From: Tessaracoccus aquimaris
GTDB taxonomy: Bacteria > Actinomycetota > Actinomycetes > Propionibacteriales > Propionibacteriaceae
Direction: 5' to 3'
Length of the DNA: 64,000 bases
Assembly (NCBI RefSeq): GCF_001997345.1
Contig: NZ_CP019606.1
Coordinates: forward strand, 2,108,001 to 2,172,000
The notes under the pieces were generated by a model, which worked only from the letters and a program-made list of their open reading frames with translations, was not told the origin of the DNA and did no database searches. The position numbers and the translations under genes are program-made. Below, piece after piece: positions 12,665 through 57,370 of this stretch. Within the stretch, counting starts at the first letter, position 1. The number at the start of each line of letters is the position of its first letter.

Positions 12665-13177
12665 TCTGGCACCTCTCGGGTCGGGTCGGCTCAGCGCGGC
12701 CAGTCTATCGCCGGATGCCGGGGCACCCCAATCCCGACGATCACCCTTGGACGGCGCGTTGCGCACCCTCCGTTCGGGCCCGTCGGGCGCTCCCACAAGC
12801 GCGCCGACCCGCTCCCCCGCACCCTGGACGACTGGCACCGGCGCCGCCGCTTCGCTCAGAGCGCAGCATCGTCACCAGAGACCTCCGGGACGTCCGACCC
12901 GTCACGCCGACAGGGCACGGGCGGGTTTCCGCGCGGGTTCGGCCTTGAGCAGCATTGCGTGTTCGTCGCGCCGACGAGGCCGTGTTAGCGCTCGCACTGC
13001 GGTCGAGGCCGCGATACTACTCAACGCCATGCCCCCACCGCTCACCGGACCGCGCGACCTTCGCTGTCAGCGAAGCAGGCAGGAAAGTGCCGGAACCCCA
13101 CCTCGGCGCGCGGTCGGCTCCCTAGTGTTTGGCTAGGCGTCGCACAGAGGCGGCGCGCGACAGACGAAGGAACCGCC
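12665..13177. other. Intergenic region between divergent guaB and cyclase gene
   Basis: 513 bases without a gene I can support. Open frames here have no family resemblance and no RBS. The region should hold the guaB promoter (minus) and the cyclase promoter (plus), though I cannot pick convincing -35/-10 boxes. One degenerate copy of the 80-nt palindromic element lies at 12945-13024. Confidence 0.5.
12945..13024. repeat. 80-nt palindromic element, degenerate copy (type A)
   Basis: Starts TTGAGCAGCATT and ends TACTACTCAA, exactly 80 nt, like the three type-A copies at 28.8-29.1 kb. The interior is diverged. Confidence 0.65.
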
Positions 13178-13961
13178 ATGAGCCTCGAGACCAATCCCCA
13201 GGACTCCGCCACGACCGCCACCGTCGTGGCGGCGCGCGATGCAGCGTTCGCCGCCTTCAAGGGCGGCTTCCGACTGGTCGACCTGAGCGACGCCCTCGGG
13301 CCCGAGACCGTGCTGTGGCCGGGGGCCCCCGCCCTGGAGATCGCCGACGCCGTCACACACGAGGGCGGCGGGTACCACGCCCGCATCATCACGACCTTCG
13401 AGCACGCGGGAACGCACTTCGACGCGCCGGAGCACTTCGTCCCAGGCGGGGCTGACACCGCCTCGATCCCGATCGACGACCTCGTGGTGCCCGTCGTGGT
13501 GATCGACATCTCGGAGCGGGCGTCGACCAACCCCAACGCGACGGTCGACGTCGCCGACATCGCACGGTTCGAGGCGGAGCACGGCACGATCCCGGCAGGC
13601 TCGGCCGTGTTGATGAACTCTGGCTGGGCACACCGCAAGCAGGACGCCCTCAGTTACGCGGGCACCGAGTCGACGACCGACCTGAAGGTTCCCCGGCTTC
13701 GGCGTGGAAGGCACCACGGAGCTCGTGGCCCGCGGGGTCGTCGGGTTGGGCGTCGACACGCTTGGCATCGACCCGGGCGACAAGCCTGACTTCCCCGTAC
13801 ACCGCCACGTCTCCCACCCGGCGGGCGTGTGGCACCTGGAGAACCTCGTCAACGTCGACCAGTTGCCTCCCACGGGCGCCGTGATCGCGGTCGGCGTGCC
13901 CCGGGTGGTCGGCGGAACCGGCTTCCCGACCCGCGTCTTCGCCTTCGTCTCGCGCGACTGA
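13178..13961 (+). pseudogene. Cyclase/kynurenine-formamidase-like metal hydrolase, frameshifted in this sequence
   Basis: The N-terminal part (from ATG 13178, after GAAGGAACCGCC) contains the family signature HAGTHFDAPEHF, which supplies metal ligands, plus FRLVDLSDALG and VVVIDISERA. The frame then changes between about 13685 and 13694 (GGTTCCCC). Removing one base restores ...LKFPGFGVEGTTELVARGV and runs to the stop at 13961 (VGLGVDTLGIDPG, RVFAFVSRD). The joined protein is about 260 aa, normal for the cyclase (PF04199) family of Mn/Zn-dependent amidohydrolases. The substrate is not determinable; kynurenine or catabolic amides are usual. No tryptophan-degradation genes are nearby. Probably intact in the organism. 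Confidence 0.75.
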
Positions 13962-14053
13962 GGATTAACGCAACGATAAATTTGGCAACTTTCCGCTGAC
14001 GCAAACCCTGCAGAAGTCGTTACATCGCCCCTTGTCAGACGCATTTGCAAGGC

Positions 14054-14082
14054 TTGCCAAAGGGCGGCGAAAAATCTAGGAT
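14054..14082 (+). promoter_or_regulatory. Sigma-A-like promoter of the DUF1540 gene
   Basis: TTGCCA (14054-14059), 17-nt spacer, TAGGAT (14077-14082), in an AT-rich patch and followed by a small TTGTC...GACAA inverted repeat (14082-14098). The RBS GGAGG lies just before the ATG at 14125. One of the clearest promoters in the window. Confidence 0.6.
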
Positions 14083-14124
14083 TGTCGTCAATAGACAACG
14101 GCACATCACCTGGAGGAACCCGCC

Positions 14125-14400
14125 ATGAGCACCGTCACCGCCATCACGTCATGCGCCACCACATCGTGCGCCTACAACGACTCCGGATGCACCGCGTTCG
14201 CCGTCACGATCGCGGGCGCCGACAAGGCCACCTGCGCCACGTTCATCACGCTCGACGCTCGCGGCGGACTCCCGGTGGCCGACGGCCACGTCGGGGCATG
14301 CCAGCGACTCGAGTGCGTCCACAACGCCGACCTGATGTGCACGGCCGCGGGCGTCGACATCTCCGACTCCGCGAACTGCCTCACCTACGAGGTGCGCTGA
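14125..14400 (+). CDS. Small cysteine-rich protein with two DUF1540 repeats
   Basis: A 91-residue protein made of two tandem Cys-rich modules. Module 1 (about residues 9-40) has the pattern C-x4-C-x6-C...C-TF (SCATTSCAYNDSGCTAF, later KATCATF). Module 2 (about 55-88) has ACQRLECVHNADLMC, later ANCLTYEV. This spacing matches DUF1540, a small presumed metal-binding domain. There is no signal peptide, so it is probably cytosolic. A strong promoter and RBS precede it, which suggests high or stress-induced expression. It stands alone between the cyclase gene and a convergent gene with an iron-box-like site. A role in binding metal or redox buffering is only an inference. Confidence 0.82.
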   Translation: MSTVTAITSCATTSCAYNDSGCTAFAVTIAGADKATCATFITLDARGGLPVADGHVGACQRLECVHNADLMCTAAGVDISDSANCLTYEVR

Positions 14401-14493
14401 GGGGCACACCCGACCCAACGATCAAGCGACGGCGCGCGGGCTCTACCCGCGTGCCGTCGCCGTCTTCGCGCCACCCCCGGCGCGACAGGTGCC

Positions 14494-55866: not shown

Positions 55867-55883
55867 CAGGTGAGCGTCACCTG
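55867..55883. promoter_or_regulatory. Palindrome in the helicase/glycosyltransferase divergent gap
   Basis: CAGGTGA-GCG-TCACCTG, perfect 7-bp arms, centred between the two divergent starts. Either an operator or a small hairpin. Confidence 0.35.
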
Positions 55884-55936
55884 GTGTTGTCCTTCGCGTG
55901 GTCCGGCATTTACGCCGATCGGAGTAGCATGGGGGC

Positions 55937-57073
55937 GTGCGAGTGGCGATAGTTGCGGAGTCCTTTCTCCCGCAGTTGAACGGAGTCACCAACTCGGTTC
56001 TCAGAATCCTCGAGCATCTGAAGGCGAACGGACACCAGGCGATGGTGATCGCTCCGCAGGACGGCGACAGGACCCCCGACCAGTACTGCGGCTTCCCCGT
56101 CGAGGCCGTCAATTCCATCGGCCTACCGTTCTACGACCAGGTGCGTGTCGTGACGACGACGTCGTCAACGCTTGAACGTCTTCTCACGAACTTCCAGCCC
56201 GACGTGGTACATCTTGCAGCCCCGTTCATCGTCGGATACAAGGCCGCCTCGGTCGCGGCGAAGCTGGGCATCCCCATCGTCGGCATCTATCAGACCGAGG
56301 TGCCGACCTATGCGGCACGCTACGGATTCCCCCAGGTGACGCCGATCCTGTGGCACCAGGTGCGCCGGGTCCACTCGCTCGCGACGCTGAACTTCGCCCC
56401 GTCGACGTTCGCCCGCGATCAGTTGGTCGCCCAGGGGATCCCGCGCGTCGGGGTGTGGGGCCGAGGCGTCGACTCGGTGCGGTTCACGCCCGCCAAACGC
56501 TCACCCGACCTTCGCTCACAGTTCGCCCCGAACGGCGAGAAGGTGATCGGCTACATGGGCAGGCTCGCGACCGAGAAGCGCGTCGAGGACCTGCTTGCGA
56601 TCGCCGACGTGCCGGGCACCCGGCTCGTCGTGATCGGCGACGGCCCGCTGCGCGGCCAGTTGGAGTCGAGCCTTCCCGGGGCGCTGTTCCTGGGCCAGTT
56701 GACCGGCGATGACCTCCCCCGGGCGATGGCGAGCCTCGACCTGTTCGTGCACCCGGGCGAGATGGAAACCTTCTGCCAGGCCATCCAGGAGGCGAAGGCC
56801 TCCGGCCTGCCGGTGATCGCCCCGCGCCGCGGCGGCCCCATCGACCTGATCGACCCGTCGCGCACGGGATGGCTGTACGAGCCGGGCGACCTGCGCGGCA
56901 TGCGCGCCCGCGTCGAGGACCTGGTCGGCGACGACCACAAGCGCCAGGCCTTCGGCCGCGCCGCCCGCGCCTCGGTGCTCGCCCGGACGTGGGACAACGT
57001 CTGCGACGAACTGATCGGCCACTACTGGAAGGCGATCGGGATGTCGGTGCGCGGGGAGCAGTTCGCCGCCTGA
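55937..57073 (+). CDS. GT4-family glycosyltransferase (MgtA/PimB-like)
   Basis: 378 residues, GTG start ([20 protein letters not shown]). GT-B fold: N-terminal glycine/Asn-rich donor-fold start, [13 protein letters not shown], and the second domain with [52 protein letters not shown] and the E-x7-E signature region. It resembles the actinobacterial alpha-mannosyltransferases that act on phosphatidylinositol or glycolipid acceptors. The exact acceptor and sugar cannot be read. Transcribed alone, divergent from the helicase. Confidence 0.88.
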
Positions 57074-57131
57074 CCGGTCACCGCCCGGCGCCCAGCGCTC
57101 GGGGTCCCCTGCGCTCGGTGCGGGCGCGAGT

Positions 57132-57211
57132 TTGAGCATGTTTGGTTGCTCGTTGCCGTTCCAAGCCTGTTTGAACGTTCATACCGGAAACGACTTACCA
57201 GACATGCTCAA
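57132..57211. repeat. 80-nt palindromic element, type B
   Basis: TTGAGCATGTTTGGT...(C)CAGACATGCTCAA; one arm has a T-to-C change (CAGACATG). The core contains GTTTGAACGTTCA. 58 bases after the glycosyltransferase stop. 80 nt. Confidence 0.9.
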
Positions 57212-57291
57212 GGAACCAGCAGAGCCGACCGTCACCAGCATGGTCGGATCGGCCCGACCGGGACGCTAGGGGGCTCGGGGAGGGCGCCGAC

Positions 57292-57370
57292 TTGAGCATG
57301 TTTGGTTGCTCGTTGCCGTTCCACGCCTGTTTGAACGTTCACAGCGAAACGAGTTACCAAACATGCTCAA
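57292..57370. repeat. 80-nt palindromic element, type B (79 nt)
   Basis: Same orientation as the copy at 57132 and 160 bases from it; perfect 15-bp arms TTGAGCATGTTTGGT/ACCAAACATGCTCAA, core GTTTGAACGTTCA. It ends 14 bases from the nnr stop. The 57074-57384 gap (311 bases) holds nothing else I can support. Confidence 0.92.

Follow-up and report, generated by a model that had tools for sequence, protein, structure and literature searches.

Among the described families of short palindromic repeats, the closest in layout to the one treated here are the REPINs, doublets of repetitive extragenic palindromic (REP) sequences that form hairpins (Bertels and Rainey, PMC3116915). In that account they have invariant inverted ends and a middle conserved in length, and they occur in tandem arrays together with their flanks (PMC3116915). 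The spread of REPs and REPINs is attributed to REP-associated tyrosine transposases (RAYTs), whereas the family described here, 80-nt palindromes from the actinobacterium Tessaracoccus aquimaris, is abundant, has the same layout and comes without a RAYT match. Seven copies lie in the window, a stretch of 64,000 nt at positions 2108001-2172000 of the genome (G000; one contig of 3,934,699 bp). Judged from the sequences, the family evidently has two inverted arms with a species-specific "dialect", set at near-constant spacing and read at the DNA level, and its units are dispersed and present or absent between species. On balance, we lean towards regarding them as REPIN-like, non-autonomous interspersed DNA elements with a putative co-evolving, trans-acting mobiliser. 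They are a clean case for asking what besides RAYTs disperses palindromes, and they raise the questions of how about a hundred sites per genome share a recognition sequence unlike that of the next species, and why the length stays near 80 (or 90) bp.

Comparison with known systems

The likeness to REPINs covers near-invariant inverted ends, a middle of fixed length and variable sequence, an intergenic position, tandem arrays with flanks, and several groups per genome, each with its own ends (PMC3116915). Unlike REPINs, the 80-nt family has no RAYT match in 39 genomes of the genus, carries an 8-nt dialect between half-sites, has an interior hardly selected for folding, and gives matches to R2, a cross-species covariance model built from 29 sequences of eight species, almost solely in one actinobacterial family. 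The CGTC-tagged REPs are likewise palindromic repeats apparently without a dedicated transposase, but with a length of 20-40 bp, stems of 8-9 bp and a terminal CGTC they differ from the 80-bp element described here (Di Nocera et al., PMC3733652); the word Actinobacteria is absent from the main text of that paper. The constant-size, variable-sequence tandem repeats of Bacillus (Subirana and Messeguer, PMC8161180) share the fixed unit length and variable sequence, but they are 52-nt or 20-21-nt tandem repeats, whereas the present units are dispersed and have inverted constant arms. Insertion sequences (ISs) that hit an extragenic palindrome at a fixed point have been described for REPs (Tobes and Pareja, PMC1525189), and the same is seen here; the REP-targeting families named there are IS3, IS110, IS4, IS256 and IS5, while the present one is IS30. 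As the hot spot of E. coli IS30 is nearly palindromic (PMC9333248), a liking of IS30 for dyads is not new in itself.

A literature search, judged by titles and the openings of abstracts, found no publication describing the 80-nt family. The family is best classed as a REPIN-like variant outside the REP/RAYT system, because neither a RAYT nor a GTAG/CGTC tag at the hairpin foot was found. The REP/RAYT likeness suggested in a preliminary description of the window therefore holds for the layout and fails for the transposase.

Copies in the window and in the genome

The window copies, each identified by sequence reading and a covariance-model match, and one spacer segment are as follows.

12945..13024, plus strand: 80-nt element, type A, diverged, right end TACTCAA
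17867..17946, minus strand: 80-nt element, type B
28766..28845, plus strand: 80-nt element, type A, tandem copy 1, groEL-helicase spacer
28915..28994, plus strand: 80-nt element, type A, tandem copy 2, unit 149 bp
29066..29145, plus strand: 80-nt element, type A, tandem copy 3, unit 151 bp
28706..29175, no strand: groEL-helicase spacer segment without a counterpart in G020, ends approximate (470 bp versus 34, two-sided alignment)
57132..57211, plus strand: 80-nt element, type B, first of a pair
57292..57370, plus strand: 79-nt element, type B, second of the pair

Rereading the window bore out the preliminary description in its seven palindromes, six of 80 nt and one of 79 nt, and in the flip of one type-B copy, since copy 17867 scores better on the minus strand and copies 57132 and 57292 on the plus strand. 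All seven are intergenic, as it had said, according to the home-made codon-score gene caller on which all gene calls here rest. Its common ends TTGAGCA/TGCTCAA hold in general, but not for copy 12945, a diverged type-A element whose right end is TACTCAA and which reads GCAGCATTGCG and not GCAGCATTCACTGG as noted earlier. Types A and B do differ in their arms (positions 8-18); their interiors, by contrast, are not unrelated as had been stated, and hold the same modules, for example CGACACGCCG and GAnnnGAACG. The heptamer TTGAGCA occurs 21 times in the window versus 2.68 expected, a nearly eightfold excess.

Further copies were found throughout the genome, where the pattern TTGAGCA-N60-70-TGCTCAA occurs 109 times versus 2 for the reversed control. 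Uniting the pattern matches, which allowed 74-84 nt, with the matches of a first covariance model, R1, gives at least 126 copies; this number and those for other genomes are minima from the model matches listed per genome, and the arms served to detect all copies. The training set of R1 consisted of G000 copies with a supplied structure, and the R2 sequences came from R1 matches, so both models favour pairing. The lengths of the 126 copies are 80 nt (116 copies), 79 nt (6), 81 nt (2), 78 nt (1) and 74 nt (1), with 124 falling between 79 and 81 nt, and 125 of the 126 lie between genes. Copies are often tandem, with 23 tandem-like pairs whose unit measures 128-183 bp, and conservation extends about 20 nt past the 80 nt; for these two reasons, the unit gained or lost is longer than 80 nt.

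Similar lengths are seen in other species. Twenty-nine copies of T. bendigoensis DSM 12906 (G011) and G020 read from model matches comprise 28 of 80 nt and one of 79 nt, and a 400-kb stretch of G020 picked by synteny holds five model copies, three of 80 nt and two of 90 nt. A scan by arms alone, open to lengths of 40-400 nt, covered the same stretch and nine kb more and gave no element at 82-89 nt; one R2 match spans 86 nt at G020:3018786-3018871 (model span only). Among 71 copies read in T. bendigoensis, four measure 90 nt and one 91 nt, and four of these five long copies differ in the arm stretch, which reads CAGGATCC, and their interior is close to TCAGCAGACAA. The 90-91-nt class includes L238, L249 and L259 in T. 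bendigoensis, where the arms are mostly different, as well as L166 and L168 in G020, and its interiors lie near TCAGCAGACAA or TCTGCAGTCGA. In the metagenome-assembled genome (MAG) 3_bin.31 (L220, L221, L234, L236, L265, L273), seven of the eight copies read are 79 nt; the copies begin with G (GTGAGCAC or GCGAGCAC), and the matching C stands at the opposite end in seven of eight.

Arms, dialects and interior

Read from the outside inwards, the element consists of TTGAGCA (positions 1-7), a species-characteristic stretch (8-18), TCG or TCA (19-21) and an interior of 34 nt (24-57), followed by the mirror image. Each of the two inverted arms is about 22 bp long and can be written as TTGAGCA-N8-degenerate TGCTCAA. 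Starting at C6, the arm stretch reads CATGTTTGGT in type B and CAG(C/T)A.. in type A of T. aquimaris, CACTATCCCGG in T. bendigoensis, CACTTTCCGG in G020, CACGACACACTG or CACGACACACTT in G021 and G033, CAGATGGCAC in G022, CACTTGGATC in G029, CAATTGGATGGG in G061 and G031, and CAAATGGAACGGG in G030. The stretch behind TTGAGCA is a species-specific dialect that is altered on both arms together. In the 29 cross-species sequences, 91% of arm cells are paired and 87 arm cells are altered on both sides, versus 34 in shuffles; the arm covariation score is 0.378 versus 0.03-0.10 in slid controls, and none of 500 shuffles scored as high.

The arm itself has an inner half-site. Start position 16 gives the best inner match to the reverse-complemented terminal heptamer in 14 of 16 species or type sets, 13 of which hold only 2-6 arms, and a complete ATGAGCA-N8-TGCTCAT or TTGAGCA-N8-TGCTCAA forms one arm in some copies of G021, G022 and G029. 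The arm therefore looks like a REP-like unit whose centre is 8 nt long, and the element like two such units in inverted order. No GTAG/CGTC tag stands at the hairpin foot at the element boundary in T. aquimaris; the GTAG seen in many type-A copies lies within the arm (positions 8-11 of TTGAGCAGTAGTC) rather than at the foot.

The interior modules named above stand at fixed places in both types, and CG is found at 35-36 or 45-46 in 115 of 116 80-nt copies of T. aquimaris and in 64 of 64 of T. bendigoensis. Pairing between the interior halves is overall not above independence, and pairing of the outer flanks is seen in the consensus only, without covariation. Substitutions between the copies of the 23 tandem-like pairs amount to 1.6% in the terminal heptamers, 7.3% in positions 8-18, 4.8% in 19-23, 17% in the interior and 30% in the flanks; this comparison leaves out four neighbouring pairs that were too dissimilar as well as pairs with a copy of another length than 80 nt.

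Presence, absence and retention at orthologous loci

The spacer between groEL and a UvrD/PcrA-like helicase gene (score under the curated cut-offs) is 553 bp long with three copies in T. aquimaris, and the orthologous spacers in G008, G020, G011 and G016 measure 123, 117, 114 and 87 bp without an element. In the G020 alignment around copy 28766, the left flank stops 61 bp upstream and the right flank restarts 410 bp past the start of copy 1. The gap holding copy 12945 is 445 nt versus a motif-free 132 nt in G020; compared to G008 it is 1442 versus 287, and the G008 gap holds a TGAGCA/TGCTCA motif. For the pair 57132/57292, the gap is 303 versus -1 in G008 and 318 versus 10 in G020. In total, for six of the seven window copies the spacer of at least one relative is without the copy, the seventh (17867) having no two-sided alignment.

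Aligned on both sides to 400 kb each of G020 and G008, 37 copies could be compared in 46 cases. In the 30 tight comparisons (25 copies), in which the gap of the relative is at most 160 nt, TGAGCA or TGCTCA was found in none; in the remaining 16, one or the other was present in seven. Conversely, four of the five copies in the G020 stretch lie in spacers that are empty in T. aquimaris, and one lies in the interval of copy 2518453. Other spacers are occupied in more than one species: those of 455701/L233, 3357259/L237, 3381188/L272, 3760039/L259 (90 nt) and 319021/L226 are common with T. bendigoensis, and that of 2380746 is common with G023, the two copies having the interior TGTyAGCGCTGCCATC in common but differing in both arms, and the G020 spacer being empty. 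Elements thus appear to come and go, and at some loci to remain while their arms are rewritten; empty sites together with common spacers of changed dialect point to turnover plus retention. The mobility proposed in the preliminary description gains support from the copy number of at least 126 and from orthologous spacers that lack the element, with the reservation that some sites are common to species. Neither outcome that the description had named as speaking against it, a lack of further copies in the genome or copies always at orthologous places with no empty site, was obtained.

Distribution across species

R2 matches are found in 17 of the 39 genus genomes, two of them (G017, G035) weakly with E of 1e-4 to 6e-4, and the number per species ranges from 1 to at least 120. 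Across the family, 26 of 197 genomes and 8 of 29 genera have matches. Beyond the genus the matches are weak (E 5e-10 to 3e-4); the only one of them read, in G090, is 79 nt long with matching arms. In a sample of the phylum, R2 matched 2 of 396 genomes, namely T. aquimaris itself and one marginal case (E 7e-4). A groEL tree of 30 genus genomes places its 13 carriers within one clade of 16, a pattern that needs three changes, for example one gain and two losses. Two close relatives, G016 and G008 (the latter rated 60% complete), gave no R2 match. Outside actinobacteria, one exact match to the arm pattern was seen in a Spirochaetales MAG (CANJXC010000002.1, L257), for which an arm-symmetry filter returned nothing, and it is probably due to chance.

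Search for a mobiliser and the IS30 insertions

As the preliminary description had stated, the window holds no mobiliser, and none was identified elsewhere. A search for RAYTs (Y1 HUH transposases, PF01797) matched none of the 39 genus genomes at E <= 0.001, with control matches in 5 of 14 reference genomes. For a longer element with the same ends, single ends were inspected by eye, and apart from elements interrupted by IS30 no facing pair one IS-length apart was seen among the matches listed (100 of 129 for type B and 75 of 75 for type A in G000, 100 of 106 in G011). Among sequence matches, genes neighbouring elements in both T. aquimaris and T. bendigoensis included no recognised transposase or recombinase, no gene-by-gene family search having been made.

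Type-B ends 1.38 kb apart had raised suspicion of an IS30 parent. The IS in question is 1294 bp long, encodes an IS30 transposase (NF033563, 259.8 bits versus a cut-off of 80) and is present in three copies; it was ruled out as parent by its own ends, GGCGGGCTCAGGTGG... and ...CCACTTGAAACCGCC, which are unlike those of the element, and by the position of its copies inside three different elements. Each is flanked by a 3-bp direct repeat, and closing the gaps restores elements of 80, 79 and 80 nt. Another long palindrome family harbours the IS relatives at 60% identity, both in G004 (8 of 8 copies) and in G002 (1 of 1). Taken together, the 12 examined copies of the clade, from three species, lie in long palindromes in which 25-32 of 40 symmetric pairs match, versus about 17 and at most 23 in shuffles of the nine G004 and G002 sites. 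The insertion point is 5-7 bp off the dyad in 11 of the 12 and at offset 0 in one, and the direct repeat is 3 bp in ten, 4 bp in one and missing in one. In contrast, a distant IS30 of G016 (about 43% identity; L293-L296, 1091-1092 bp), of which 4 of 8 copies were examined, is not inserted in palindromes, with 17 of 40 pairs matching as in the shuffles. The IS30 clade uses palindromes as landing sites and is a parasite of the elements, and it provides a naturally palindrome-targeting transposase. It is not the general mobiliser, because carriers such as G011, G020, G019 and G023 have no such IS30 at E <= 1e-20.

The second long palindrome family (..GCGGAGGTTCGACGGTTCAACGTCGTGTGGCGACGTTGAACCG..), from the other Tessaracoccus clade, is known solely through the inserted IS30 copies, at L030, L048 and L287-L292 in G004 and L031 in G002.

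Interpretation

If the elements are REPIN-like and mobilised in trans, a putative DNA-binding protein whose specificity varies by species would form a paired complex with the two arms and would likely copy or move the unit, while tandem units would arise afterwards through ordinary duplication. The near-fixed distance between the arms would fit a constraint that admits lengths about one helical turn apart, usually 80 bp and rarely 90 bp; as the 90-nt class is longer by 10 nt, or about one turn, phasing may be the reason for the length. A more specific version can be put forward tentatively, in which a REPIN-like dispersal system of Propionibacteriaceae would use a putative non-HUH enzyme reading duplex DNA, with two dialect-specific operators in helical register, a dialect rewritten at scores of loci (some in the same spacers) and an IS30 clade specialised on the dyad. 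Several results weigh against mobilisation in trans, beginning with the failure to identify a mobiliser. Target-site duplications of 2-10 bp show no excess over shuffled flanks around G000 copies, and at ten junctions the excess in T. aquimaris varies from 66 to 229 bp for single copies and is 304 bp for the pair 57132/57292, leaving the ends of the moved unit undefined. The common spacers show retention in place. Two-sided change is found in 12 of 21 arm pairs, a level reached by 31 of 500 shuffles and so not decisive alone, and the interior folds at most weakly better than shuffled sequence, unlike that of REPINs (gain of -0.8 kcal, p 0.1, in T. aquimaris and -0.6 kcal, p 0.035, in T. bendigoensis). 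The conservation of arms and length in T. bendigoensis is partly by construction, as the pattern used to retrieve its loci prescribed the arms and a length of 79-81 nt, and detection by arms also lowers the arm divergence in the tandem pairs.

The main rival, possible but doubtful in our view, is that of host-function nucleoprotein sites, in which a chromosome-organising or regulatory protein would sit on paired arms, selection keeping the sites while the motif drifts with the protein. This would account for the near-constant arm spacing, for common spacers with a changed dialect (such as 455701/L233 and 3357259/L237, or 2380746/G023 with its near-identical interior), and for tandem copies whose arms diverge less than their flanks, a difference subject to the detection bias just mentioned. 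It agrees poorly with close relatives that have no match (G008, at its rated completeness, and G016), with counts that differ so widely among species, with many spacers lacking the element, and with an uneven spread along the chromosome, on which the positions of origin and terminus were not placed. Miniature inverted-repeat transposable elements (MITEs) trimmed from an autonomous transposon with the same ends would also be short, intergenic and dispersed with inverted repeats, but such an origin is unlikely given the missing facing ends among the matches listed, the lack of target-site duplication and the different ends of the IS30 in this genome. Least probable by far is a structured RNA or bidirectional terminator acting in transcripts, the first of which the preliminary description had entertained. 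A stable hairpin is predicted on either strand, and convergent spacers are mildly enriched (34 of 124 copies in T. aquimaris and 22 of 53 in T. bendigoensis, versus 17-27% of spacer bases in three reference stretches). However, arm mispairs on the transcribed strand of 60 co-directionally flanked 80-nt copies of T. aquimaris comprise 67 G.U and 67 A.C, those of 17 T. bendigoensis copies 18 and 16, and orientation relative to transcription is even (15 versus 20, 25 undecided), therefore favouring recognition as DNA over RNA; the seven window copies also gave no Rfam match at the gathering score.

Additional observations

Palindromes resembling TTGAGCATGCTCAA near 415.8 kb of the T. aquimaris genome were considered as a further element and rejected, as they form a promoter-like stretch beside an ArdC-type gene. 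These copies (G000:C1:415878-415959; L123:1879-1960) lie between two divergent genes and share their first 9 nt with the type-B arm. One of the genes has ArdC N-terminal and IrrE-like domains; the other has no Pfam match and is presumably a helix-turn-helix (HTH) regulator. Within the window, a Cobalamin riboswitch (RF00174, 36.2 bits) is found at 34504-34623 on the plus strand, upstream of a predicted gene at 34713.

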